A stretch of 64,000 nucleotides of DNA, from the NCBI RefSeq assembly GCF_021129235.1, contig NZ_JAJOMA010000001.1, positions 744,001-808,000 on the forward strand. Direction: 5' to 3'. Source of the DNA: Kineosporia mesophila (GTDB lineage: Bacteria; Actinomycetota; Actinomycetes; Actinomycetales; Kineosporiaceae). Made by a program: the position numbers and the translations under genes. Below the pieces are notes generated by a model, which saw only the letters and a list, made by a program, of their open reading frames with translations, searched no databases and was not told the origin of the DNA. Shown here piece by piece: positions 2,938 through 22,357 of this stretch (position 1 is the stretch's first letter; the number at the start of each line of letters is the position of its first letter).

Positions 2938-3507
2938 CTACTGTCGCGTCGTCCTCAATCCCTGGTCGATGAACCGCACCACCCAGGTGAAACTGTCGTC
3001 GACGTCGATGCCGATCCGGAAACCACCGGTCGCCTCCAGACTCGCGAAGCCGTGCAGGGTGCTGCGCAGCAACCGCAGCACGTGGATCTCCTGGTCGGGG
3101 TCGAGCCGGTACCCGCGCAGCATGGCGCTCCAGGAGGCGAACAGCCGGTCGACGGCGGCCCGGAGCGGGTCGTCGGGCCCGCCCGGCCGGGCCGCGTTGC
3201 CGGCCGTGTACCGGCCGGGGTGTTCCAGCGCGTACGTGCGCATGGCGTCCGCGCCGGCGACCAGGGCGTCGCGACCGGCTCGTCCCCGGGTGGCCTCGCC
3301 GATCGCGTCGGCGATCTCGGTCATCGCGAGAATCCCGATCCGGTGCGAGAGATCGGCCTGGCCGGCGACGTGCTTGTAGAGCGAGGGCGCCTTGACCCCG
3401 AGGCGTTCGGCGAGCAGGCCCATACTGAGCCGGTCGAAGCCGATCTCGTCGGCCAGCGCGGCCCCGGCCGCGGTGACCGAACCCGCGTCGAGCCCGGCTC
3501 TAGGCAA
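2938..3507 (-). CDS. TetR/AcrR-family repressor
   Basis: The N-terminal helix-turn-helix is recognisable in DRLSMGLLAERLGVKAPSLY, followed by KHV, the usual TetR recognition-helix pattern. A C-terminal ligand/dimerisation domain of the WHG (TetR_C_33-like) type follows, with LRSTLHGFASLEATGGF. I use a TTG start at 3507, which overlaps the stop of the upstream hydrolase gene by several bases, with AGGA 9 bases upstream. No ATG or GTG exists nearby in frame. The product is 189 residues. Coupling to the hydrolase and a palindrome in front of that gene suggest it represses its own operon. Confidence 0.85.
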   Translation of the reverse strand: MPRAGLDAGSVTAAGAALADEIGFDRLSMGLLAERLGVKAPSLYKHVAGQADLSHRIGILAMTEIADAIGEATRGRAGRDALVAGADAMRTYALEHPGRYTAGNAARPGGPDDPLRAAVDRLFASWSAMLRGYRLDPDQEIHVLRLLRSTLHGFASLEATGGFRIGIDVDDSFTWVVRFIDQGLRTTRQ

Positions 3508-4336
3508 GGGAGAGGTTCCTGGCCAGGAAGGGCAGAGCCAGGGCGACGACCTCGTCGGGGTTCTGCGCGTGCGGATAGTGGCCGGCGCCCTCGATGACGG
3601 CCAGTTCGCCGAGACCGGCGGGCAGGTCGGCGATGATCTTCTCGCCCTCGGCGCGCGGGTCGGCCCAGTCGGGGTCGAGGCTGCCCTGGACGACCAGCAC
3701 CGGGCAGGTGACGTTGGGCAGCTGCTCACCCGCGTCCGCGGGGCTGGCCTTGCACATGGCCTGGAGGGCCTTCATCCGGCCGGGCTCGCCCATCTTCGTC
3801 TCGATGCGCGCCATTTCGCTGTCCCAGTCGGCGGGCTTGGTCGGGTAGGCCAGGGTCAGGTACTTCTTCCAGGCCGGCAGGCTGCCGAGCACCAGCGTCA
3901 GGCCCAGCTGGGTGGTGCCCGCCCGGTAGCGCTTCGACCGGAACAGCGTACCCAGGGAGACCGACTGCTTGCGGGTGAACGGGGCCAGCTCGATGGTGCC
4001 GGCGATCAGGTCGGGTGCGGTGGCGGCGGCGATGGTGGCCGCGCCGCCACTGATCGACTGGCCGATGATCACGGCCGGCCCGCCCAGGTGCCGCACCACG
4101 GCGACCAGGTCGCCGGCGATGTCGGTGCGGCTGTAGCCGTCCCAGTCCAGGCCGGAGTCGCCGCAGCCGCGGATGTCGACGTTGGCGACCCGGTATCCGG
4201 CCGCCACCAGGGCCGGGATCATGAAGCGGTAGGAGTGCCGGCTGTCTCCCATGCCGTGCGCCAGGACGACGAGGGGGCCCTCGCCGGTGACGTCGTAGGC
4301 GATGGTGTTGCCGGCGATGTTCAGGTACTCGGTCAT
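3500..4336 (-). CDS. Alpha/beta hydrolase
   Basis: A 278-residue alpha/beta hydrolase with an oxyanion region LAHGMGDSRHSY (about residues 25-36), a nucleophile elbow GQSISGG with Ser94, an acid loop QGSLDPDWAD and a catalytic histidine in GAGHYPHAQNPDE. The fold covers esterases, epoxide hydrolases and haloperoxidases, and the substrate cannot be read from sequence. The ATG has a strong GGAGG about 5 bases upstream. It is the first gene of a two-gene unit with the TetR gene, and overlapping palindromes (4356-4390) sit in its promoter. It is probably a TetR-controlled detoxification enzyme (inference). Confidence 0.88.
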   Translation of the reverse strand: MTEYLNIAGNTIAYDVTGEGPLVVLAHGMGDSRHSYRFMIPALVAAGYRVANVDIRGCGDSGLDWDGYSRTDIAGDLVAVVRHLGGPAVIIGQSISGGAATIAAATAPDLIAGTIELAPFTRKQSVSLGTLFRSKRYRAGTTQLGLTLVLGSLPAWKKYLTLAYPTKPADWDSEMARIETKMGEPGRMKALQAMCKASPADAGEQLPNVTCPVLVVQGSLDPDWADPRAEGEKIIADLPAGLGELAVIEGAGHYPHAQNPDEVVALALPFLARNLSLA

Positions 4337-4355
4337 GACGTCCTCCGTGGCTTTG

Positions 4356-4390
4356 GCTAATTCCGTTAGCTAAAAGCTAGAGGCATTAGC
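4356..4390. promoter_or_regulatory. Probable TetR operator: overlapping inverted repeats
   Basis: GCTAA-TTCCG-TTAGC (4356-4370) overlaps TAGCT-AAA-AGCTA (4367-4379), and a further half-site ATTAGC follows at 4385-4390. The cluster lies about 20-55 bases upstream of the hydrolase start and is A/T-rich in a G/C-rich neighbourhood, as TetR operators often are. The natural ligand is the TetR protein encoded in the same unit. Confidence 0.6.
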
Positions 4391-4498
4391 TTCTGATGTC
4401 AACGGGGGCTCTCCTGGGAGATTGGTGATCACAGAGCGACCTGCCATGATTCAGCGGCTGCTGGGGAACGGACGCCCCAGGCCCTGGAGGATGTGAAC

Positions 4499-5095
4499 GT
4501 GAAGCGGTCGCTGCTGGTTCGGTCGGTCGTCACCATGTCGGTGGCCGGGCTCCTGCTGACCGGGTGCGCGAGAGAGAGCGAGACCCCGACCGCCGCGGCG
4601 TCGTCCTCTCCCGCGGTCGTGACACCCACCGCCCCGGTGTCGGTCTGGAACGTGGACGAGGACAAGGACGCCACCTGGACCCGGCAGCTGAAGGAGATCA
4701 AGCAGATGCTGCAGCGGGTGCACGGCGCCAAGTCCACCAAGGCCGCCGAGGTCCGCACCGAGCAGATGATCGACCTGGAGAAGGTGCTGACCGAGATGGC
4801 CGCGGCCGGTGGCCCCGAAGGCGTCGGGCACGTGGCCTGTGAGGTCATGCCGATCCAGCTGCTGTCGTACGAGGACAGCGACTCCGCCGACATGGTGAGC
4901 ATGCAGATCGGCGCCTACTGGAGCGCCGCCGTCGCGGCCGCGGCGAACGAGCCCGGCGCGAGCTTCAAGGACGTCGAGCTCGACGCGCGCATGGAAGAGG
5001 AGTGCGAGGACGTCCACGACGACGTGCTGAAGACCATGGGCCTGCGCACCCTGAACAAGATGTACCGCCTGCCCCAGGTGTCGCCGACGTCCTGA
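4499..5095 (+). CDS. Putative secreted lipoprotein of unknown function
   Basis: A 198-residue protein with a signal peptide (MKRSLLVRSVVTMSVAGLLL) ending in lipobox LLTGC, so it is probably lipid-anchored on the outer face of the membrane. A Ser/Thr/Pro/Ala-rich linker follows, then a mainly helical, acidic domain with three cysteines (VACEV, EECED). GTG at 4499 is chosen because GGAGG sits 8 bases upstream; GTG at 4493 is too close to that site. I do not recognise the family. The gene stands alone, and the next gene is also secreted. Confidence 0.7.
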   Translation: MKRSLLVRSVVTMSVAGLLLTGCARESETPTAAASSSPAVVTPTAPVSVWNVDEDKDATWTRQLKEIKQMLQRVHGAKSTKAAEVRTEQMIDLEKVLTEMAAAGGPEGVGHVACEVMPIQLLSYEDSDSADMVSMQIGAYWSAAVAAAANEPGASFKDVELDARMEEECEDVHDDVLKTMGLRTLNKMYRLPQVSPTS

Positions 5096-5205
5096 ACGCG
5101 CTGCGTGACGGAGCAACCCGTCCGGAGTATCAGAACCGCTACGGCCTGTCCGATGGACCAGTCAGGCCCGGAGCGGTTCTGGGACAATCTGGAAGGAAAC
5201 TCTTC

Positions 5206-5550
5206 ATGCGTCGTGCCCTCATTGGCGTCGGTGTCGTTGCCACCCTCGTGGTCGGTGGTGCCACATCGGCCGATGCGGCGGTCAAGAACACGTCGTGCGT
5301 CACCAACGCCGAGTTCGGCAAGGTGAAGGTCGGCATGTCGAAGGCCCAGGTGGCGAAGGTCATCGGCGGCAACGGCACCCGGACCAGCTACGAGACCAAC
5401 GCGCAGGGCTACGGCGAGGAGGTCCGCACCTACAAGGCGTGCAACCTCCCGACGGCGACCGTGCAGGTGGTCTTCGGTTCCAAGCAGGACCTGCCGGCGC
5501 CGAGCATCGGGTGGGCCGCCGGCAAGGTGTGGGTCGAGGGCTGGAAGTAG
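5206..5550 (+). CDS. Secreted BLIP/SmpA-like single-domain protein
   Basis: A 114-residue exported protein. The ATG at 5206 has GGAAGGAAA in front, and the signal peptide runs to ATSADA-A. The mature part, beginning CVTNAEFGKVKVGMSKAQVA and continuing with YKACNLPTATVQVVFGSKQDL, shows the repeat pattern of the SmpA/OmlA and beta-lactamase-inhibitor (BLIP) fold: a helix pair with a GMSKAQV turn, then paired strands, with one likely disulfide (two cysteines). Known BLIPs have two tandem repeats; here there is one. Any inhibitor activity is speculation. Confidence 0.72.
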   Translation: MRRALIGVGVVATLVVGGATSADAAVKNTSCVTNAEFGKVKVGMSKAQVAKVIGGNGTRTSYETNAQGYGEEVRTYKACNLPTATVQVVFGSKQDLPAPSIGWAAGKVWVEGWK

Positions 5551-13017: not shown

Positions 13018-13100
13018 TTGGCAAAATCCCAAACGGTGTGCAATCTTGTACTCATGCTCGCGGGCATGCCAAAAGTTTGCGGGGGATGGTCTTTTAGGTG
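13018..13100 (+). promoter_or_regulatory. Repeated promoter element, copy 2
   Basis: Ungapped counterpart of 12242-12324. TTGGCA at 13018 and CAATCT 17 bases later form the promoter-like core, with AAACGGTG between them as a candidate operator. It lies about 60-140 bases upstream of the Scr1-type regulator start and immediately after the stop of the membrane gene. Autoregulation by that regulator is the simplest reading (inference). Confidence 0.6.
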
Positions 13101-13159
13101 AACTGGCCGATGCCTTCTGCTTCAGGTGTGAGGCCTGCTCCGGACCGAGGGGGGATGAG

Positions 13160-14047
13160 GTGCAGACCGAGATCACGGGGTCGACCGTTCCGCGACGCCA
13201 GCTCGGCAGATACATGCGCGATCTGCGAGGGCAGGCTCGCATGACGGTTCGGGCCGTGGCCAAGGAACTGGAATGGTCGGAAGGCAAGATCTGGCGCATC
13301 GAGACAGGGAAGTCGTCGCTGCGCAGTCATGATGCCGAGCTGATGTGCCGGGTCTACGGAGCCAACGTCGAGATGACCGGTGTGCTCACGGCTCTTGCCA
13401 AAGAGACGAAGTCGCGTGGATGGTGGCATAGCTACGGGGATGTCATTCCCGAATACTTTGATGTGTACATCGGACTTGAGGAGTCTGCGTCCGAATTTCG
13501 CTGGTACGAGGAAAATCTCGTGCCTGGTCTTTTGCAAACGAGGCCGTATGCTCAAGCCATCATCGAGTCCGATAATCCAGAGGTGGGACCCACCGAGATT
13601 GCTCGACGCGTCGGTGTGCGCACTGGCCGGGGAGCACTGTTAACGCGTGCGACCGCGCCCCCGCGCTTCCAAGCGGTCATTGGAGAAGCCGTGCTGCGCT
13701 CGCCGGTTGGTGGAGCTGAAACGATGCACGGACAGGTTGAGCACCTGCTGAAACTCGCGCAGTTGGAGCATGTTCAAGTTCGCGTCATGCCATTTGACGC
13801 TGGTTTGCATACCGGACTGCATTCTGGATCGTTCATTACGCTTGGATTTCCGAAGACTTTAGATGGACACGACAGTGAACCAACGACTGTATATATTGAA
13901 TCGCTTACGGGGGCGTTGTATCTCGATAGACCAGCTGAACTTTCGCGGTATAACGCTGTCTGGGAGGGGCTTTGGGGATCATGCCTGGACGACTTGGCAT
14001 CGGCAGAACTGATGAGACAAGCTGCGAGGAGGTTTCGGGATGAGTGA
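13160..14047 (+). CDS. Scr1-family XRE regulator with DUF5753
   Basis: A 295-residue regulator. The N-terminal XRE helix-turn-helix reads RYMRDLRGQARMTVRAVAKE, then WSEGKIWRIETGKSS. The C-terminal DUF5753 domain (about residues 105-285) has ESASEFRWYEENLVPGLLQT and EHVQVRVMPFDAGLHTGLHS. GTG 13160 is chosen, with GGGGGGA about 7 bases upstream; the longer open frame adds cysteine-rich residues not typical of the family. The 3' part is A/T-richer than flanking genes. It overlaps the DUF397 gene by 8 bases. Such WhiJ/Scr1-DUF397 pairs act in development and, in some studies, behave like antitoxin-toxin pairs. Confidence 0.9.
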   Translation: MQTEITGSTVPRRQLGRYMRDLRGQARMTVRAVAKELEWSEGKIWRIETGKSSLRSHDAELMCRVYGANVEMTGVLTALAKETKSRGWWHSYGDVIPEYFDVYIGLEESASEFRWYEENLVPGLLQTRPYAQAIIESDNPEVGPTEIARRVGVRTGRGALLTRATAPPRFQAVIGEAVLRSPVGGAETMHGQVEHLLKLAQLEHVQVRVMPFDAGLHTGLHSGSFITLGFPKTLDGHDSEPTTVYIESLTGALYLDRPAELSRYNAVWEGLWGSCLDDLASAELMRQAARRFRDE

Positions 14048-14310: not shown

Positions 14311-15312
14311 CTATTTCTGATTCATCTCATCATGAGCGCGAAGCATATTAATAGCCGCTTGGGCGCTCTTCTTTGGCACGGAAGGCGCCTCCTGTATAGA
14401 ATCAGTAGTTTTGGCGATAGTCCAAAAACTTGTTCCAATGGCGGCCATTTTATCATCAGATGATTGGTCAGTTGGCTTAACTCGAACAGAAATCAACTCT
14501 CCGCTTTTTGGGGCAGGAAGCCCAAGTTGGTCGGCGATGACCGGCTCGTTTTCCATATGGCCAAGAATCAGGATGCCTTCTGGACGGAGCTTTGAGCGCG
14601 CACCACCGTTCTCGCGGGCACGTTTCATGAAATCTTCTTGCTGGGCCACCGTCGCAATTTCTGCACGGCGAATGATCCGCTGTTGGACACGGCGGAATAG
14701 TTCATTAACGCGTGCCTGCCCACTCGAAGGCTGACCATTTTCCTGAGCATTGAATATGCTAGCTCGTGTTGCGGGATCTAGTGATATAAAGAGATTGGGA
14801 GCGAGCCGTCCATGATCAGGCCACAGCCTCATGATTTTTGTCCTGCCCAGCGCGGAAAGCGTTCCTTTTCTGTCCCTATTGAGCGCCAGGTTCATAATTT
14901 TTCCATCGACCCGAACGAGTCCAGCGGTCCAGGTGGCAGTGTCATCATTGGCCCATATGAGTAGCGCAAGGTGGTTGATGATTTCGGGAGGCAAAGCCCA
15001 ACCTCCTGGACGCATTGAATACTTGCAATCGACTTGGACGCCAGCAATCCGGTAGTCGGTGGCATCACCGTCATCAAATTTGAACTCGCGCTGCAGATTT
15101 ATCTCGATAAGGGTGCCCATATGCGTCTTCTCGGTCTTGCTGAGCTGCGAGAAGTGCCAGTGACCGGTGCGTTGTCCGTCGTATAGCTGATCATAGGTAT
15201 CTCGGATGACACGGGCGATGCGTTCTCCTGTAGGATCAAGTTGATAAAGGCGATCGCGGACCGCAGCAATTTCAGGATCTTCAATTTGGTCGATTGATGC
15301 CAATAGCTTCAC
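14311..15312 (-). CDS. NaeI-type type II restriction endonuclease
   Basis: A 333-residue relative of NaeI, which cleaves GCCGGC after binding two sites. The catalytic residues fall at the NaeI numbers: Glu70 (GTLIEINLQ), Asp86 (ATDYRIAG), Asp95 and Lys97 (GVQVDCKYS). The DNA-ligase-like segment TYDQLYDGQRTG has Leu43 where ligases have the reactive lysine, as in NaeI, where that change is reported to confer topoisomerase activity. The C-terminal Topo domain is recognisable in QARVNELFRRVQQRIIRRAE and ARSKLRPEGILILGH. The GTG start overlaps the Vsr stop by one base. It is A/T-richer than host genes and probably horizontally acquired. Specificity for GCCGGC is inferred. Confidence 0.95.
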   Translation of the reverse strand: MKLLASIDQIEDPEIAAVRDRLYQLDPTGERIARVIRDTYDQLYDGQRTGHWHFSQLSKTEKTHMGTLIEINLQREFKFDDGDATDYRIAGVQVDCKYSMRPGGWALPPEIINHLALLIWANDDTATWTAGLVRVDGKIMNLALNRDRKGTLSALGRTKIMRLWPDHGRLAPNLFISLDPATRASIFNAQENGQPSSGQARVNELFRRVQQRIIRRAEIATVAQQEDFMKRARENGGARSKLRPEGILILGHMENEPVIADQLGLPAPKSGELISVRVKPTDQSSDDKMAAIGTSFWTIAKTTDSIQEAPSVPKKSAQAAINMLRAHDEMNQK

Positions 15313-15755
15313 TATGCACCCTTCTTAAGGGCAATCTCAACGGCTTCAATTGCCTCAGGTAGTGCTTCATGTTCCCAGATGCGTACGACGATCCAACCGG
15401 ACGAGGTGAGGAGGTCGTTCGTCTTCTGATCGCGAGCGACGTTCTTTCGCAGCTTCGGTGTCCAGTACCACTCGTTGCTGGTGGGTTCACGCCCATGGAT
15501 AGGACAGACATGCCAGAAGCAGCCGTCAATGAAGACGGCGACCTTGGCCCGGGTGAAGACGACGTCGGGACGAGCCCGACCGCCCGGAAGATCAAGACGA
15601 AGATCTTTGCGGAAACGGTAGCCTCGTCGATGCAGCGCTGAGCGCACTGCGACCTCAGGCTTCGTGTTGGTTCGGCGGACAGCCGCAAGGTTGCGAGAAC
15701 GCCCAGCGCTTGTAGGTACCAGCCGTCGATCCACCGTCGCTGCGTGGTCCCTCAA
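15312..15755 (-). CDS. Very short patch repair (Vsr) endonuclease
   Basis: Nicks DNA next to T:G mismatches produced when 5-methylcytosine deaminates, protecting methyltransferase target sites. The 147-residue product contains NTKPEVAVRSALHRRGYRF, the metal-site strand ARPDVVFTRAKVAVFIDGCF with Asp64, then WHVCPIHGREPTSN, WTPKLRKNVARDQKTND and the ending GWIVVRIWEHE, all standard Vsr blocks. TTG 15755 is chosen because AAGG lies 7 bases upstream; the longer frame lacks a usable start. It is translationally coupled to the NaeI-type gene and divergent from the methyltransferase, forming the usual endonuclease-Vsr-methylase trio. Confidence 0.92.
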   Translation of the reverse strand: MRDHAATVDRRLVPTSAGRSRNLAAVRRTNTKPEVAVRSALHRRGYRFRKDLRLDLPGGRARPDVVFTRAKVAVFIDGCFWHVCPIHGREPTSNEWYWTPKLRKNVARDQKTNDLLTSSGWIVVRIWEHEALPEAIEAVEIALKKGA

Positions 15756-16037
15756 TGGAGCACCTTCTGTAGCCACAGCGTGACGATATCGGTAGCCAGT
15801 TGGCAGGACGGACGCTGATCGCCGACAGGTCTCGGCTGGGCGAAAGTCCTGGCAGGCAACATGTTGGTCTCGGGACCGCGAGTTGTCTTGATTTTCGTAC
15901 AAATGTTCGACTCACTAGTGCGGTGAGTGTCACGCTCCGGGAGGCACGGAGGCGACCGTGGCAGTGGTGTGGATGCGCCATACTTCGGTGGTTTGGACTG
16001 TCGGCGAAGCCGAGCGCGATGTTGAGGAGCTTGAGCG

Positions 16038-17321
16038 ATGGATCTGGATGTTGTGGAGATCTGCGCGGGCGCGGGCGGCCAGTCGCTGGGGTTGCACCTG
16101 GCTGAGTTCCGGCACAAGTTGGCTGTTGAGCTCGACGAGCATGCGGCGAACACGCTCAAACACAACTTTGCAAATCTGGACATTGATCCGGAGAAGACGG
16201 TTCGTGTAGGCGATGTTGCAAATAAGGAGCTGTGGGACCCCAAGAATTACGGTGGGACTGCTCTCCTAGCCGGTGGCGTTCCGTGCCCCCCGTTTAGTCA
16301 GGCTGGTAAGCAGCTGGGTTCCGCGGACGAACGCGATCTCTTTGCATGGGCGGTTGATGCGGCTGGAAGAATGCAGCCAGAGGCCGTCTTGCTAGAGAAT
16401 GTTAAAGGTTTGAGAGATGCTCGCTTCGGCGGCTATCGTCAGGCTGTAGTTGATCAGTTTGACTCGATGGGCTACACGGCTGAATGGCAGCTGCTCGAGG
16501 CCCACGGATTTGATGTGCCCCAGCTTCGTCCTCGTATGGTTCTCGTAGCACTGAAAAAAGAGTATGTTGATTACTTCGAATGGCCTGAACCAAAAACAAC
16601 CGCTAAGACCGTGGCCACAACTTTGGCCTCGGATATGCAGTTTCTGCGAGCAGACTTCCAGGAAAAATTTCTCGAGCGAGCAGCCAAGATTGCGCCGACT
16701 ATCGTAGGTGGAAGTAAGAAGCATGGTGGGGCTGACCTTGGTCCTACTCGTGCCAAGCTCGCATGGGAAGCAATGTGGATTGATGCCCATGGTCTTGCAA
16801 ATGATGCGCCTGATGCTGACTGGCGTCCAGGCCCACTCAATCGCGGGCCCAAACTGACCGTAGACATGGTCAAGAAGCTTCAGGGATGGGATGGTGCGTT
16901 GTATGAGAATTGGGAAATTCTAGGTAAGAAGACTAGCCAGTATCGTCAGATTGGCAATGCTTTCCCTCCGCCGGTGGCTCACGCCGTAGGCGGCTCCATT
17001 GCACGAGCCCTTCGTAAAGAGTCAGCCGCGAAGCGAGCTCCGGCTGAACGCAAGATGCATGATGAGGTGTATCGCCTCCTTCGTGATGGTGGGGATTGGC
17101 TGACCGCTGGGAAGCTCTCAAAGTCTCTCGGTGAGAAGCTCGAAGAGCCTGAGGTTGTGAGGCGGATCGAGCTACTCAAGCGGGACTTTGAGGTTGAGGA
17201 ACGTGGGAGTGGGCGCACGAAGGCCTACCGCATTGGGAAGTGGAAGGCTTTCCAGGGGCAGGAAGACCATAATCGCCATGCGGCGTTCGCAGAGAAGAAG
17301 CAGCGCGGACGGATCAGCTAG
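16038..17321 (+). CDS. DNA (cytosine-5) methyltransferase of the NaeI-type system
   Basis: A 427-residue C5-cytosine methylase. Motif I is EICAGAGGQSLGL, motif IV GGVPCPPFS with catalytic Cys83, motif VI LLENVKG (Glu120), motif VIII QLRPRMVLVA, and motif X QIGNAFPPPVAHAV. The target-recognition region is short (about residues 175-300). After motif X a 75-residue tail (DEVYRLLRDGGDWLTAGKLS, then RTKAYRIGKW) looks like a winged helix, possibly a self-regulatory DNA-binding domain. It protects host sites from the NaeI-type nuclease. Starting codons differ from the G/C-rich host style. The stop is 18 bases from that of the convergent helicase gene. Confidence 0.95.
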   Translation: MDLDVVEICAGAGGQSLGLHLAEFRHKLAVELDEHAANTLKHNFANLDIDPEKTVRVGDVANKELWDPKNYGGTALLAGGVPCPPFSQAGKQLGSADERDLFAWAVDAAGRMQPEAVLLENVKGLRDARFGGYRQAVVDQFDSMGYTAEWQLLEAHGFDVPQLRPRMVLVALKKEYVDYFEWPEPKTTAKTVATTLASDMQFLRADFQEKFLERAAKIAPTIVGGSKKHGGADLGPTRAKLAWEAMWIDAHGLANDAPDADWRPGPLNRGPKLTVDMVKKLQGWDGALYENWEILGKKTSQYRQIGNAFPPPVAHAVGGSIARALRKESAAKRAPAERKMHDEVYRLLRDGGDWLTAGKLSKSLGEKLEEPEVVRRIELLKRDFEVEERGSGRTKAYRIGKWKAFQGQEDHNRHAAFAEKKQRGRIS

Positions 17322-17339
17322 TAAGTAGGTATCGGCGGA

Positions 17340-19166
17340 TTATTCCTTCTCGCGGAGATGGGCGAGGAGAGCATAAATGTCGGCGGTATCCATGCCGCCG
17401 GCGCTCAGCGTCTCATCTTCCTGAAGGTCGCCTAGTTGCCGAACGGCGGGGTCGTCCAGGATTCCACCCATGAACTCCAGTTTCTCCTCCAGTCGATGAG
17501 CAACGATCTCGTCAACAGTGTTGCGGGCAGCCAGCACGGTCACTCGTGTCTCGGTATTAGGGGCAAGACCAAGACGATGAATACGATCGAGGCTCTGAAG
17601 GAAACGGCCGGCCATGAAATCCCTGTCGACATAGACGGCGTCATGACAGTCATGGTGAAGGCTGATTCCTTCGCCGAGGGTCGCGGGGTTCGAGATGAGT
17701 ACGAAGCATTGTGGGTCCTCCCGGAAGCGCCTGATCTGATCATCGCGATCCTTACTGCCACCGTGAACGACTGCGGGGCTGAACGGTTCGAGTAGCCGCT
17801 CAAGAGTCATAATGCTCCGAACGAAAGTGCTCCACACAATAGTCTTGCGCTTGTCGGCCACGTTTTCGGCGACAATCTTTACAGCTTCTGTGTACTTGGG
17901 TGAAAGCTCATGCTGAGGAAGATTTTTCAGCAAGGTGTTCAGGGAATCGTGAGGCGAAGCTTCTAGAGGAGGCACCTGATAGGCAAGGGGCTCGTAGCGG
18001 GTTGTGCCTTCTGCCAGCAGTGCGGGGCTCGTGGCTGCCATGAGCATCCGGAGCATAGCCTTGCCGAGAGCATCCAGATCTCCAGCGCGAGCGCCAGGGT
18101 TGCCTTTCAGGGCTTCGTAGATCTCACGGTGCAGGTCTGGAAGATCGACGTAACGGATCTTCGTAGTTACGGGAGGAAGCCCTAGCTCTGTCTTGGTGGT
18201 ACGGGTGAACAACGGGCGCAACACAGAACTCGCGTATGCGAGGTTGCCGCCGCCAACCGCATCGGTGACTACTCGCTTACCATGACCGGGCCAGACGAAG
18301 GAGAGCAAGCTTTCCAAGTCGCGCGCGCCGTTTGGCGCTGGTGTGCCTGTGAGGATGAGCCTCCGATTCGCCAGCGGACCAAGGGCTAGGCAGGCGGCTC
18401 CGTAGGCGCCACTTGACCCGAGCTTCATACGATGAGCTTCATCCAAGATGATCATTGAAGATGCTGTTCTCAGCCAAGCCGACAAGTTCGGGACCGAACG
18501 CGCGAGGCGTTCGTAGTTGACTACAACGACTTCCGCCATGGGATCAGGGGCGCCACTCATGATCGACGTGCGCAGAGGCTTGTCAAAACAAGCTCCCGCT
18601 TCGAACTGCCATGATTCGTAGGCAGATTTTGGGCAAATGACGAGCAGGCGCTGGGCCTCACCGCGCGTGCGCATGGCTGCGAAGATGGCGAGAGCGACCC
18701 GCGTCTTACCGGCACCCGGAACACTGAAGTTTGCCCCGTGGCGCATCCCGAGCAGAGCCGCGACATCACGGCGCTGGAAGTTGGTGAGGTCAGCAGCCCA
18801 GCTGGCGCCCAGCAGGTCGATCACGTTGCTCGCGGAGGGGGCGCCAATAGCAGTCAGTTGCGCCGAGCCCGTCAGTCTCTGCTCAGCTGTGTCAGCGTCA
18901 TCGAGGACACTGGTAACTAGATTGGCAAGAGCTTCCTCCCACACCACCGCCGCATCGGGCCAGGTGGCCAGCTCGCCCACTGCGGCGAGAAACTCGTCTA
19001 GACCTATCTCTGCCGTCAGCGGTCCGCTTTGAGCTCCGGGGGAGATATGCCCCACCAGCCCGGCAAACTGATCGCGGAAGTCTGTCGCCGCCCGCAGAAC
19101 CACGCGCGTTCGCGTCACATCGAAAGTCAGGGACAGTGATGAATCCTGCGATTCGGTGGATGTCAT
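17340..19166 (-). CDS. SNF2/DEAH-type helicase of the defence island
   Basis: A 608-residue superfamily 2 ATPase. Visible motifs: Q-like NFQRRDVAALL (about 129-139), Walker A VPGAGKTRVA (149-158), Ia ICPKSAYESW, II ILDEAHRMK (240-248), III LTGTPAPNG (272-280), and the C-terminal lobe with KTIVWSTFV, ISNPATLGEGISLHH and the SNF2-like ending QSLDRIHRLGL. It probably translocates on double-stranded DNA. ATG 19166 overlaps the ParB-like gene stop as ATGA, so the two are coupled. An N-terminal region of about 120 residues is unassigned. It is last in a three-gene operon converging on the methyltransferase; no known defence helicase (DrmA, DrmD, DruE) is clearly matched. Confidence 0.9.
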   Translation of the reverse strand: MTSTESQDSSLSLTFDVTRTRVVLRAATDFRDQFAGLVGHISPGAQSGPLTAEIGLDEFLAAVGELATWPDAAVVWEEALANLVTSVLDDADTAEQRLTGSAQLTAIGAPSASNVIDLLGASWAADLTNFQRRDVAALLGMRHGANFSVPGAGKTRVALAIFAAMRTRGEAQRLLVICPKSAYESWQFEAGACFDKPLRTSIMSGAPDPMAEVVVVNYERLARSVPNLSAWLRTASSMIILDEAHRMKLGSSGAYGAACLALGPLANRRLILTGTPAPNGARDLESLLSFVWPGHGKRVVTDAVGGGNLAYASSVLRPLFTRTTKTELGLPPVTTKIRYVDLPDLHREIYEALKGNPGARAGDLDALGKAMLRMLMAATSPALLAEGTTRYEPLAYQVPPLEASPHDSLNTLLKNLPQHELSPKYTEAVKIVAENVADKRKTIVWSTFVRSIMTLERLLEPFSPAVVHGGSKDRDDQIRRFREDPQCFVLISNPATLGEGISLHHDCHDAVYVDRDFMAGRFLQSLDRIHRLGLAPNTETRVTVLAARNTVDEIVAHRLEEKLEFMGGILDDPAVRQLGDLQEDETLSAGGMDTADIYALLAHLREKE

Positions 19167-20569
19167 TCTTGAGACACCGCCTCGTTCAGCCACACGAGCC
19201 CATCGCCGGGAAGATCGATGCTCTTGTTTGCCTCGACCGCGACCTTACGAAGGGTGGCTTGCAGCTTCACGAGGGCGTCATCGAAGGCTTCCTCGTCGAG
19301 ACTGCCGTTACCACGCGCAATTACGAGGTCGGTGACGCACTGATCGAGATCCTTGCAAGCATCGACAACGCGATCGGGCGCAGCCTGGCGTTTCTTGCGC
19401 ATCCGGGAGTCCTTGCCGGCGAACTCGATTGCCTCATCGAAGGCAGCCAGCAGTTCTTCCTTGGACTTCGCGGCCTCTGCAAGCTGCTCCAGATTGGCCT
19501 TTTCGCCGGCAACTTCGACGGCCCTAACTTTCAGCACAGCGTCCGTGAGCGCTCTAGCGGCGCTGACCTGTGGAGCCGAGGTAGGTGCAGCACGGTTGAG
19601 CCCAGGAATAGTCCGGGGGGCCGCCGTGGAAGAGGTCTGTTGCTTGAAGCTGTCGGGAAGGCGCTGGTTGAGAAAGCGATCTTGGAAGTCAGATTCGATG
19701 AAACGCACGTCGGTCTTAGCGAACTCGAGAGCAATGGCGGCCAGCCGGGCCTCCTTGAGGAGGTCGGCCTTCTCCTTGTTGCGCTCGTTCTTCACCGACC
19801 GGTAGAGCTCGAAGAGCTTCTCCTTGTGGTCCTCGAAATCCATGAGCCGAAGGGAGAACTCGCCGTTAGTACTTCGGCGAATGAGGTCGAGCAGGCTACC
19901 CAGAATCCAGACGTCACGCTCCAGAGCCGGGCTCGTGGTGTGGAAAGTGCGAGCGATCTCGGGCAGGCCTCGCCCCAGTGTCATCTGCTCATCGACCGCC
20001 AGTAGATGGTTGATGTATGAGTAGTCACGCCGGTGGTCCTGCCGGAGCTGCAGCGTGAGTTCGACCGTGTGAATGTCTTCCCACGTCGTCGAAGCAGGAA
20101 GGACCCCGACGCGGATGAACTGCTTTCCAAGATCCTTCAGGGCCGCCCGGCGGGTGTTGCCATTGACGAGGATGCCGTCGCGAGTGATGAGACCCGGCTC
20201 GAGCTGGGCGTAGTCGCTCAGGCTCGTGACCAGCTCGTCGAACTTGGGGTCAGTTTTGGACGGATCGGCCGGCAGCCTCGAGAGGAGATAATGCAGGTAC
20301 TCCTGGCTTTCTTCCTGCCAGGGGTCCTGGTTCAGAAGCGCGTCCTTACCTAGGTCATGACTGCGCTGGGCGCGGATTCGGTGCGTGCCCGGGTTGTAGT
20401 ACAAGCGGGCGACAGGCATGTCGATGACCTGAACGTTTAAGGGCTGCCCTCGAAACTCGACCTTCAGGGTTTCGGGCACCCCGTTCGCTCCAGTGGCTTC
20501 CGTGAGACGTTCCTCAACGAGGCCGCGTATCTGCCCTGCATTGGGGGGAGTGCCGAAGTCAGTGCTCAA
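19163..20569 (-). CDS. ParB/Srx-fold N-terminal domain protein of the defence island
   Basis: A 468-residue protein. The ParB/sulfiredoxin-like domain covers about residues 45-165, with VIDMPVARLYYNPGTHRIRA and the diagnostic motif LITRDGILVNGNTRRAALKD (128-147). A helical segment follows (YSYINHLLAVDEQMTLGRGL), then a charged, probably coiled-coil C-terminal half (NKEKADLLKEARLAAIALEF). In ParB-like proteins this domain binds or hydrolyses nucleotide and recognises DNA; in some defence relatives it has nuclease activity. The TTG start has AAGGA 6 bases upstream. It follows the HNH-like gene by 87 bases and is coupled to the helicase. The role is inferred from context. Confidence 0.85.
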   Translation of the reverse strand: MSTDFGTPPNAGQIRGLVEERLTEATGANGVPETLKVEFRGQPLNVQVIDMPVARLYYNPGTHRIRAQRSHDLGKDALLNQDPWQEESQEYLHYLLSRLPADPSKTDPKFDELVTSLSDYAQLEPGLITRDGILVNGNTRRAALKDLGKQFIRVGVLPASTTWEDIHTVELTLQLRQDHRRDYSYINHLLAVDEQMTLGRGLPEIARTFHTTSPALERDVWILGSLLDLIRRSTNGEFSLRLMDFEDHKEKLFELYRSVKNERNKEKADLLKEARLAAIALEFAKTDVRFIESDFQDRFLNQRLPDSFKQQTSSTAAPRTIPGLNRAAPTSAPQVSAARALTDAVLKVRAVEVAGEKANLEQLAEAAKSKEELLAAFDEAIEFAGKDSRMRKKRQAAPDRVVDACKDLDQCVTDLVIARGNGSLDEEAFDDALVKLQATLRKVAVEANKSIDLPGDGLVWLNEAVSQE

Positions 20570-20656
20570 CGTCTGTCCTTGGGATCTCGAGCGCTAGGGC
20601 CGGGGTTCGGCATGAGATGACCTAGCTGTGGCCTGCAGAGCTGGTGCTGGTGAGGT

Positions 20657-21343
20657 TCAGAGAACTTTCTGGCGCACGAGGTCGCGAGCCTCGGCGGGCA
20701 ACGTTCGGTAATCAGCCCACAACTGTTCCACGTCGCTAAAAGTCCTGGTGTCCTGGTCGATCCAGGAGGACAGCATCTTCTTCTCGATGGCCGGCAGCTT
20801 GGCTGCCCGATCAATGACTTCGCCGACGTCAGCCTTGAGCTTGGAATTGCCAACTCGGCAGCGGTTGCACTCCACGATGAGCTGCACCTTGTCTTCCCCA
20901 TCGGGCTGACGCACCGTTCGCCGGGCAATGTCGAGCTGTGATGTGATGTCCGTGTCGGCGTACGTTTCCCCAGGGCTGATTCCACAGCTCCGACACTTGT
21001 GGCCATCTTGCACCAGCAGTTCGCGGCGCTGGGCGGGGCCGATCGCGCCGGCTCCAGCGCCGGATGGGGTTCCCTTGCCAGGCTCCCAGACAGCCTCACC
21101 CTGCTGAATGAATCGCTGCTGGTTAGCGTCCAGGCTGATGTCCTCGCGGTTGGTATCGATCTTCCATCCGTGCGCTCGAAGGTCACGCATACGGCGATCG
21201 ATCTGGGTGGTCTCCGGGAACGCGTCCCGAAGCGCACTCTTGGTGAAAATGTTGCCCTCACCAACCACCTGGAGCAGCCATAGAGCGGCCCTCTTTTTCG
21301 TACCGAGCTTCGAATCGGTCCAGTCGGGCAGAGACGCTGACAT
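20657..21343 (-). CDS. Winged-helix plus degenerate HNH-like zinc domain protein
   Basis: A 228-residue protein, first gene of the helicase operon; ATG 21343 has GAAGG 6 bases upstream. Residues 15-80 (KKRAALWLLQVVGEGNIFTK, then IDRRMRDLRAHGWKIDTNRE) form a winged-helix-like DNA-binding domain. Residues 105-175 resemble an HNH nuclease by the zinc pairs C117-x2-C120 and C159-x2-C162 (DGHKCRSCGI, VECNRCRVGN). The catalytic histidines expected around LDIARR (138-142) and after the second CxxC (Arg163) are missing. It may therefore be a sensor of DNA ends or modification rather than a nuclease, or a divergent nuclease. I know no characterised protein with this exact layout. Confidence 0.75.
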   Translation of the reverse strand: MSASLPDWTDSKLGTKKRAALWLLQVVGEGNIFTKSALRDAFPETTQIDRRMRDLRAHGWKIDTNREDISLDANQQRFIQQGEAVWEPGKGTPSGAGAGAIGPAQRRELLVQDGHKCRSCGISPGETYADTDITSQLDIARRTVRQPDGEDKVQLIVECNRCRVGNSKLKADVGEVIDRAAKLPAIEKKMLSSWIDQDTRTFSDVEQLWADYRTLPAEARDLVRQKVL

Positions 21344-21625: not shown

Positions 21626-22357
21626 ATGCCCCGTCGAGGAGAGCGTGCACCCATCAAGGTGCCTCCGGGCACGCCGCTGGCCAAGCTCTGTCAGGAGCTG
21701 GGAAAGCTCGACAGTTCTCTGAGTTCCAAGTTCACCCAGCGGGAGATGGCTGAGCTCTGCAGGGTGGAGAAGACTTCGTTCTCGAACCTGTTGCGTGGTT
21801 CGCAGAAGCGCCCGGATGAAGCTCTGATCAAGTCTTTCCACCAGCTAGCAATATCCCGGGGGGACGGCCGGAAGCTGCCGCAGCTCGCTGACCTGCTGGA
21901 ACTTGCTACTTGGGCGGCACTTCACGCCACCTCTCCTGATAAGTGCACCCAGTGTCTACGGCCTTGGAACTTGGGTGATCTGTCCACTGAGGTAAGGCCG
22001 GCTCCCAGGGCTGTCCTTGCTGGTCAGGAGCAGGCCGTGTTGCCGGTCCCCCCGCCGGAGGGGGACCGGCAAGGGTCTTGGGACGGTTTGCCTGAACTGC
22101 GGGCGCGATTGGATGCCCGCCAGGATGGCGACGCGGCGGGCGTCCTGCGAGACATCGGGCGCTACTGGAAACCTCGCGAGGTGGTCACGGTGATTGTGGC
22201 CTGCCGGCGTGAAGGGCTCGAAGATGCTGCGCAAGTGATGCTTCACTACGCAGCGCAACGGGAGGATCGCGAAATCATTGATCTAGTCGGAGCTTTTCTG
22301 AAGGCCGAAGAGACGGTAGCCGCGAGGACCCTCGTCTCACTCAATCGAGAGCGATAG
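21626..22357 (+). CDS. XRE-like regulator with C-terminal helical repeats
   Basis: A 243-residue protein. The N-terminal part (about residues 15-75) has SKFTQREMAELCRVEKTSFS followed by NLLRGSQKRP, a helix-turn-helix of XRE type. A proline-rich linker follows with one CTQC pair. The C-terminal half consists of short helical pairs (RLDARQDGDAAGVLRDIGRY, then REVVTVIVACRREGLEDAAQ) like those in actinomycete regulators related to the Scr1 world. The Shine-Dalgarno GAGAGGGAG is good. It is divergent from the HNH/ParB/helicase operon across a 282-base A/T-rich gap, so it may control that operon (inference). Confidence 0.75.
   Translation: MPRRGERAPIKVPPGTPLAKLCQELGKLDSSLSSKFTQREMAELCRVEKTSFSNLLRGSQKRPDEALIKSFHQLAISRGDGRKLPQLADLLELATWAALHATSPDKCTQCLRPWNLGDLSTEVRPAPRAVLAGQEQAVLPVPPPEGDRQGSWDGLPELRARLDARQDGDAAGVLRDIGRYWKPREVVTVIVACRREGLEDAAQVMLHYAAQREDREIIDLVGAFLKAEETVAARTLVSLNRER

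Follow-up and report, generated by a model that had tools for sequence, protein, structure and literature searches.

We analysed a 64,000-nucleotide stretch of the Kineosporia mesophila genome (7.78 Mb), hereafter the window, in which genes for an SNF2-type ATPase, a ParB-like protein and an HNH-like protein lie next to a restriction-modification (R-M) cassette. Comparison with related loci indicates that this trio is a conserved unit separate from the cassette, that it shares its history with a divergent helix-turn-helix (HTH) gene, and that its constant partner is a signature in the C5 methyltransferase, not NaeI. The HNH-like protein appears to be a disarmed paralogue of a winged helix-turn-helix (wHTH)-HNH enzyme that mostly stands beside methyltransferases with this signature. 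We regard it as an even call that the trio serves a composite R-M system as its restricting or remodelling arm, in which a dead-enzyme reader would load a ParB clamp and an SNF2 motor. Six genes fill positions 14311-21343 of the window, and the divergent gene starts 282 bases upstream of the trio operon:

14311-15312, minus strand: NaeI-family restriction endonuclease (PF09126, 6.2e-104; PDB 1ev7, 1.6e-113).
15312-15902, minus strand: Vsr endonuclease (TIGR00632, 148 bits against a cut-off of 97.85).
16038-17321, plus strand: C5 methyltransferase, predicted target GCCGGC (PF00145, 1.8e-53; recognition-domain signature).
17340-19166, minus strand: SNF2-type superfamily 2 (SF2) ATPase, the putative motor (PF00176, 5.5e-21; Walker A PGAGKT, DEAH).
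19163-20569, minus strand: ParB-like protein with a predicted CTPase domain, an HTH region and a helical C-terminal part, carrying VNGNTR (structural model).
20657-21343, minus strand: HNH-like protein with a winged-helix part and a Cys4 zinc fold, catalytic histidine absent (alignment and structural model).
21626-22357, plus strand: divergent HTH gene, probable regulator (at 77 of 85 distinct loci; history common with the trio).

The gene set and coordinates agree with those of an earlier sequence-only reading, as does the assignment of the nuclease to the NaeI type, whose active-site region is conserved in the alignment with 1ev7. That reading had also noted an ATGA coupling of the ParB-like and helicase genes, a gap of 18 bases between helicase end and methyltransferase stop, and a G+C content lower than in the flanks. 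All three were seen again: the ParB-like stop overlaps the helicase ATG at 19163-19166, the gap spans 17322-17339, and the G+C content is 0.53-0.61 in 1-kb steps over 14-22 kb, whereas the steps outside 13-24 kb have 0.62-0.74. The helicase start was placed at ATG 19166, with a longer alternative from GTG 19193 possible. An R-M trio facing the helicase operon had been described as well, which holds for the methyltransferase only; the NaeI and Vsr genes lie on the strand of the operon, which runs HNH-like, ParB-like and SNF2 helicase on the minus strand. Judged from their sequences, the NaeI, Vsr and methyltransferase genes make up what looks like an ordinary GCCGGC-type Type II R-M cassette, and cleavage and methylation of GCCGGC are suggested by the NaeI similarity and the common signature. 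A GC-frame gene caller missed the NaeI, Vsr, methyltransferase and helicase genes in the low-GC island, and homology-weighted calling was used instead.

Beyond the window, GTDB contigs were searched by a pattern scan with the ParB-like protein, and the best 80 of 196 relatives, all from actinobacterial genera, were kept. Six further loci and the window brought the set to 87 (numbered with the prefix L), of which 85 were distinct after removal of L040 (a duplicate of L008) and L067 (of L009); a tblastn match had to cover at least 30% of the query at E ≤ 1e-8. The helicase, ParB-like and HNH-like block was complete at all 85 loci, each of which had been found through the ParB gene. In 82 of them the HNH-like gene stands immediately before the ParB gene on the same strand, and in L010, L011 and L072 it lies on the other strand. 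C5 methyltransferase and Vsr genes were each found at 81/85 loci, and the nuclease-methyltransferase block is found to the left or the right of the trio, in both orientations. Recurrence of the trio with varied R-M systems, which the sequence-only reading had named as support, was borne out: NaeI-like nuclease genes occur at 44 loci, NgoMIV-type ones at 12, DUF3883/NOV_C at 23 and another HNH enzyme at four. None of these four types was found at 14/85 loci, some of which are on short contigs and may hold other nucleases that were missed. NaeI itself is not the anchor: besides its presence at just over half of the trio loci, 14 of the 19 genomes with NaeI in a sample of 296 from the class gave no ParB or trio match, and a ParB-like relative occurred in seven genomes of that sample.

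Pairwise distances also set the unit apart. Those of the helicase, ParB-like, HNH-like and HTH proteins correlate at 0.69-0.89 (Pearson, uncorrected for kinship, 38 to 85 shared loci per pair), with 0.69-0.75 for the HTH protein against the trio. On the same uncorrected scale, these four correlate at only 0.13-0.33 with the methyltransferase or Vsr and at 0.20-0.34 with NaeI, and the R-M genes correlate weakly among themselves (0.14-0.29). This difference suggests that the R-M genes surrounding the unit have been swapped, and that the link between trio and methyltransferase outlives cassette exchange.

The methyltransferases at trio loci are 40-64% identical to that of the window in their catalytic part, and between the C5 motifs they keep the signature PT-x-(V/C)-GGS-x-(K/R)-HGG(A/P)DLGP(T/S)RA whatever nuclease adjoins. 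The signature was found at 80/85 trio loci. The genomes of L019, L050 and L083 carry a signature methyltransferase elsewhere (that of L050 apparently just past the fetched stretch), the contig of L090 ends inside the methyltransferase gene, and L034 is left without explanation. At NaeI loci that lack the trio, the signature lay within the fetched 3.7-3.9 kb in eight of 14 and slightly further off in a ninth (L128), and five showed none. Among 30 methyltransferase relatives from the 296-genome sample, 21 have the signature and nine (36-50% identical) do not; all seven trio genomes of the sample fall among the 21, for which chance would account about three times in a billion by a hand calculation that ignores kinship. 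Since 14 of the 21 signature genomes are without the trio, the trio seems to need the methyltransferase, and not vice versa. NaeI (GCC/GGC) and NgoMIV (G/CCGGC) belong to different families and cut the same GCCGGC site (PMC6449724). The simplest reading is that the unit would be tied to one target sequence.

The HNH-like protein had been labelled winged-helix/HNH-like, and its winged-helix part and Cys4 zinc fold stand; it is predicted to be without nuclease activity. Four zinc cysteines are invariant in all 80 aligned copies (the incomplete gene of L069 was left out), and in all 80 the histidine at the catalytic place is absent. The description of the operon as a helicase-ParB-nuclease set is thus wrong, because its HNH gene encodes a disarmed nuclease. 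HNH paralogues that are not part of the trio keep the histidine in 14/17 cases. At seven trio loci (L023, L027, L030, L035, L041, L042 and L047) such a paralogue lies next to a second signature methyltransferase. Of eight paralogues outside trio loci, five have a signature methyltransferase no more than 2 kb away, one is beside a signature-less methyltransferase and one is on a different contig from that of its genome's methyltransferase; none was seen near the eighth, L186. In a tree built without duplicates and with L186, from which nine weak HNH-only matches and a half gene lacking the catalytic part (L195) were left out, the 84 trio sequences form one clade against the 17 others (support 0.995). 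The tree, the histidine pattern and the signature neighbours together suggest that a restriction enzyme with apparently identical specificity lost its catalytic site on a single occasion and was retained, and the dead enzyme is predicted to serve as a sequence reader. Its structural model (predicted local distance difference test, pLDDT, 87.7) gave no Foldseek match at E 0.001; weak structural matches were to wHTH proteins (best Z 6.7, 61 residues, root-mean-square deviation (rmsd) 2.0) and to the HNH region of Cap5 (Z 5.9, 71 residues, rmsd 4.6). Sequence searches of PDB returned nothing convincing for the HNH-like or the ParB-like protein.

The apparently active wHTH-HNH enzyme paired with a signature C5 methyltransferase at the seven trio loci named above (L023:13849-15832 as an example; the L027 copy has lost the histidine) is also found outside trio loci, at L172, L173, L182, L184 and L185. 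Such pairs are probably a further GCCGGC-type R-M family.

The AlphaFold2 model of the ParB-like protein (pLDDT 88.3) predicts the N-terminal CTPase fold of ParB. It superposes on the ParB-CDP structure 7bnk_A with a VIA Z of 11.4 over 93 residues (rmsd 1.4) and on KorB with Z 10.2 over 200 residues (rmsd 5.1), the latter covering CTPase domain and HTH, and Foldseek matched 6sdk_A at 7.7e-5. V(N/D)GNTR is kept at 82/85 loci, and the Walker A and DEAH motifs of the SNF2 protein at 85/85. No match to the ParB-like protein was found in phage records. General family searches said less: only general helicase models of Pfam exceeded their cut-offs on the trio, neither the ParB-like nor the HNH-like protein reached any Pfam cut-off, and no NCBIfam model passed its own on the trio proteins. 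With PADLOC, the helicase showed partial SNF2 similarity (best DrmD, 58.9 bits), the ParB-like protein gave no match and the HNH-like protein a chance-level one.

Related operons occur in other phyla. Plasmid matches to the ParB-like query came from alphaproteobacteria (five) and Streptomyces (one). The operon of Mesorhizobium, Azospirillum, Kozakia and Rhizobium encodes a protein designated X, ParB, the helicase and DUF3883, which has been called a novel restriction endonuclease domain, that is, a restriction-type nuclease (PMC3710099); C5 methyltransferase and Vsr genes lie on the same plasmid stretch or plasmid. X matches the PADLOC Type II restriction endonuclease family PDLC03501 at 2.1e-19, which an intact relative matches at 2e-137. 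All four X proteins have hydrophobic residues at both acidic positions (D to I or V; E/D to I), and D and (E/D)LK are intact in all ten X relatives examined. A C5 methyltransferase gene directly precedes nine of the ten, and the tenth is in an unannotated record; two come from near-identical Methylocystis plasmids, and of 13 further plasmid records with X relatives nine were opened, leaving out H24, H26, H27 and H31. Rhizobium has both X and an intact relative. From these residues, X appears to be a disarmed paralogue of a PD-(D/E)XK restriction enzyme that has lost its acidic residues. Compared with the Mesorhizobium enzyme, the alphaproteobacterial methyltransferases show 60-73% identity, and the adjoining nucleases differ (GIY-YIG, DUF4928 or an X relative). 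DUF4928 (L148:17280-18209) and GIY-YIG (L147:16415-17194) genes directly follow related C5 methyltransferases that are 60% identical, an arrangement that points to exchangeable nucleases serving one site. On the Kozakia plasmid L171, the X relative next to the methyltransferase is split into two adjacent matches at 15678-16533 and is perhaps broken; the reader unit there looks intact.

Three Bacillota loci, one on a Lactiplantibacillus plasmid and two near-identical ones in Priestia, carry a C5 methyltransferase, ParB, SNF2 and a protein that corresponds, in the alignment of all three loci, to the C-terminal half of Sau3AI only, with the catalytic N-terminal domain absent. That half of Sau3AI has lost the catalytic residues and is an effector-binding domain (PMC548270). 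The Priestia protein has a further C-terminal part and its gene is on the other strand, and one Priestia plasmid also encodes, about 5 kb off, a full-length Sau3AI that has a methyltransferase of its own. The Lactiplantibacillus SNF2 protein (L152:5512-8100) has an N-terminal PLD domain, in a region that matches PADLOC PbeA at 5.3e-67. Disarmed restriction enzymes thus stand repeatedly beside ParB and SNF2 genes in three phyla, in three folds (wHTH-HNH, PD-(D/E)XK and the MutH/Sau3AI effector domain), and this repetition is the surprising part.

We propose that the HNH-like dead enzyme, its DNA-binding part kept, reads the unmethylated target of the methyltransferase (predicted GCCGGC) and loads the ParB-like protein, which is predicted to be a CTP-dependent DNA clamp. 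Clamp and SNF2 ATPase would then spread or translocate along foreign DNA such as that of a phage, and block it, remodel it or deliver it to a nuclease, which may be NaeI or Vsr in the window and a DUF3883 or PLD domain in relatives; C5 methylation would spare host DNA. A wider version falls slightly short of an even chance in our judgement: a general immunity class in at least three phyla, of ParB-SNF2 machines whose targeting comes from restriction enzymes of three unrelated folds, each inactivated independently. In such a class, the dead enzyme would provide recognition, the C5 methyltransferase self-marking, and the CTP-gated clamp and motor with an optional DUF3883 or PLD nuclease the attack, the classical R-M nuclease being a replaceable extra. 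If so, R-M loci would hold a second arm driven by ATP and possibly CTP, restriction enzymes would have evolved into pure sequence readers like engineered dead nucleases, and ParB-type clamps would have a role in immunity. It would also explain how one methyltransferase specificity persists while nucleases swap around it, and would supply a search rule, namely inactivated restriction enzymes beside ParB and SNF2 genes.

A number of observations weigh against this proposal. CTP use is uncertain, because GNTR replaces GERR, the ParB phosphate motif at that place, and the family profile of the ParB-like protein gave no match to the genome's own chromosomal ParB. The common specificity is read from one conserved segment of the methyltransferase, GCCGGC was not enriched upstream of the unit (6/82 loci; L010, L011 and L072, with the HNH-like gene on the other strand, were left out), and the Crossiella locus L019 has its methyltransferase elsewhere in the genome. 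Three of the 17 non-trio paralogues (L027, L082 and L186) likewise lack the histidine, and the distance correlations are uncorrected for species kinship. No dedicated nuclease is evident in the window trio, which is perhaps a reduced form, given that 23/85 loci carry DUF3883. Outside actinobacteria the loci are few: four alphaproteobacterial ones with X, one in Lactiplantibacillus and two near-identical ones in Priestia. The Streptomyces plasmid (L146) has HTH, ParB and helicase genes and no HNH-like or C5 methyltransferase match in the stretch, and the Paracoccus plasmid (L151) has ParB, a helicase and, assigned by reading only, DUF3883-like and amino-methylase-like open reading frames, with no X match. 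On the Enterococcus plasmids L164 and L165 the ParB-like and helicase genes form an operon with one for a sigma-region-4-like HTH protein of about 865 residues, and no C5 methyltransferase match was seen within the 17 kb examined; these loci may be a different system. Bacillota-type ParB relatives were found in 71 plasmid records, 52 of them from Enterococcus, and because five of these loci were opened, the R-M link is unproved for the ParB-SNF2 pair at large. Near-identical copies of the Enterococcus operon are present in many plasmid records.

Of the other explanations, a safety or repair device fares best, and we still consider it unlikely. The dead enzyme would compete for sites or mark them, and ParB-SNF2 would remove the restriction enzyme or handle breaks when host methylation is lost, which would shield the host against its own R-M system. 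A competitor role comes naturally to a dead paralogue, the unit goes with the methyltransferase signature, and Vsr, a repair-type enzyme, is present at nearly all loci; but the unit also stands at the 14 loci without any of the four nuclease types sought, where others may be present, and its relatives carry DUF3883, described as a nuclease domain (PMC3710099), or PLD, which suggests attack.

We think it improbable that the unit is an enhancer of two-site enzymes, with the reader binding a second site and clamp and motor joining distant sites for NaeI, Sau3AI or NgoMIV. NaeI and Sau3AI belong to Type IIE and bind their site in two copies (PMC1189080), NgoMIV is grouped as Type IIF (PMC548270), and the Bacillota reader is exactly the effector half of Sau3AI. 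The many trio loci with other nucleases, or with none found, speak against such a role.

Two further accounts are very improbable, and equally so. Transcriptional or chromatin-type regulation, in which ParB would spread over the R-M locus and silence it, would suit the ParB/KorB-like fold with its HTH and the shared history of the divergent HTH gene, but an SNF2 motor is unusual for such a role and tests with GCCGGC, enriched words and TGCC-N5-GGCA found no conserved operator upstream. An independent defence system parked in defence islands, or a partition system of a plasmid or other element, would suit the plasmid occurrence, where the gene is annotated as a partition protein, and the Enterococcus loci without a visible methyltransferase, but the methyltransferase signature is constant, the readers derive from restriction enzymes in three lineages, and no ParA was among the trio families at the actinobacterial loci, where no ParA-specific search was made.

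The composite R-M proposal was also set against known systems. As the sequence-only reading had it, protein model scans matched the trio to none of DISARM, BREX, Druantia and Dnd as systems. DISARM is defined by DrmA, DrmB and DrmC with DrmD or DrmE; here only the helicase resembled DrmD (37 bits against a cut-off of 610), the ParB-like, HNH-like, NaeI and Vsr proteins had no Drm match, and the DrmMII similarity of the methyltransferase is general. Druantia has the DruE helicase and partners, and Dnd and Ssp systems have DndBCDE or SspBCD modification genes. In the eight proteins scanned there was no DruE, DruF or DruG (DruM matched the methyltransferase only), no DndBCDE or SspBCD match, no PglZ or BrxC match beyond a weak BrxH-type helicase similarity, and no PLD, B3 or Z1 family as in CglI/NgoAVII. 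For GmrSD, no DUF262 or HNH family was found at E ≤ 0.1 in the window proteins, and for MORC-Z1/MZA, one query set gave no GHKL or Z1 tblastn match in window positions 8001-30000.

Partial likenesses are instructive nonetheless. MORC/paraMORC R-M systems (PMC2292703) share the C5 methyltransferase, Vsr and SF2 helicase, and one of their three operon types has SWI2/SNF2 helicases with HNH or EcoRII-like nucleases. The GHKL ATPase is defining there, whereas it is near 22/85 trio loci, usually with Z1, and the part of that article available mentions no ParB clamp or dead restriction enzyme. By analogy, the closest mechanistic precedent would be CglI. CglI/NgoAVII combine a C5 methyltransferase, a sequence-reading R protein and a helicase ATPase, and a catalytically inactive R protein of CglI still stimulates the ATPase; R is a PLD nuclease with B3, the helicase is DEAD-Z1, and there is no ParB in the system as described in that source (PMC4267653). 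The trio reader, in contrast, is naturally dead and of other folds. In the Type IIE enzymes NaeI and Sau3AI a non-cleaving part also reads the same site (PMC1189080, PMC548270), but the effector domain is fused to the nuclease, whereas in the Bacillota unit it stands alone beside ParB and SNF2. The Type IV enzyme GmrSD combines a ParB-like NTPase with an HNH domain (PMC4619093, PMC12839542) and attacks modified DNA, while the trio has a dead HNH, an added SNF2 and a methyltransferase. Chromosomal ParB, Noc and KorB clamps have in common with the trio protein the predicted CTPase fold and HTH region, and differ from it in its GNTR, long helical C-terminal part and R-M context. A literature search of mainly open-access coverage, with supplements outside it, found no description of a unit of ParB, SNF2 and dead restriction enzyme, and the trio is apparently an undescribed partner of R-M methyltransferases.

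Z1 genes lie near 24/85 trio loci, and MzaC-related Z1 and MzaB-related GHKL (MORC-like) genes stand beside about a quarter of them (for example, L084:1428-3008 and L057:15793-18768). Unlike in MZA, they are not part of the trio; their presence beside many trio loci implies that two ATPase modules may share one methyltransferase.

A TGCC-N5-GGCA operator suggested by enriched upstream words did not hold up, with 3 exact sites where 2.4 were expected; these words probably stem from the beginning of the HNH-like coding sequence, which the region included. A gene-call family at the Vsr position (f13) was taken as the reverse strand of Vsr and not as a gene. At L009, about 3407-5326, a NaeI-like region is contained in an open frame of 639 residues, perhaps through fusion or overlap. 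The window also encodes an XRE/DUF5753 (Sco1979-like) regulator at 13046-14047, on the left margin of the low-GC island, and its family recurs near 29 of the 87 trio loci in the homology-weighted gene calls.

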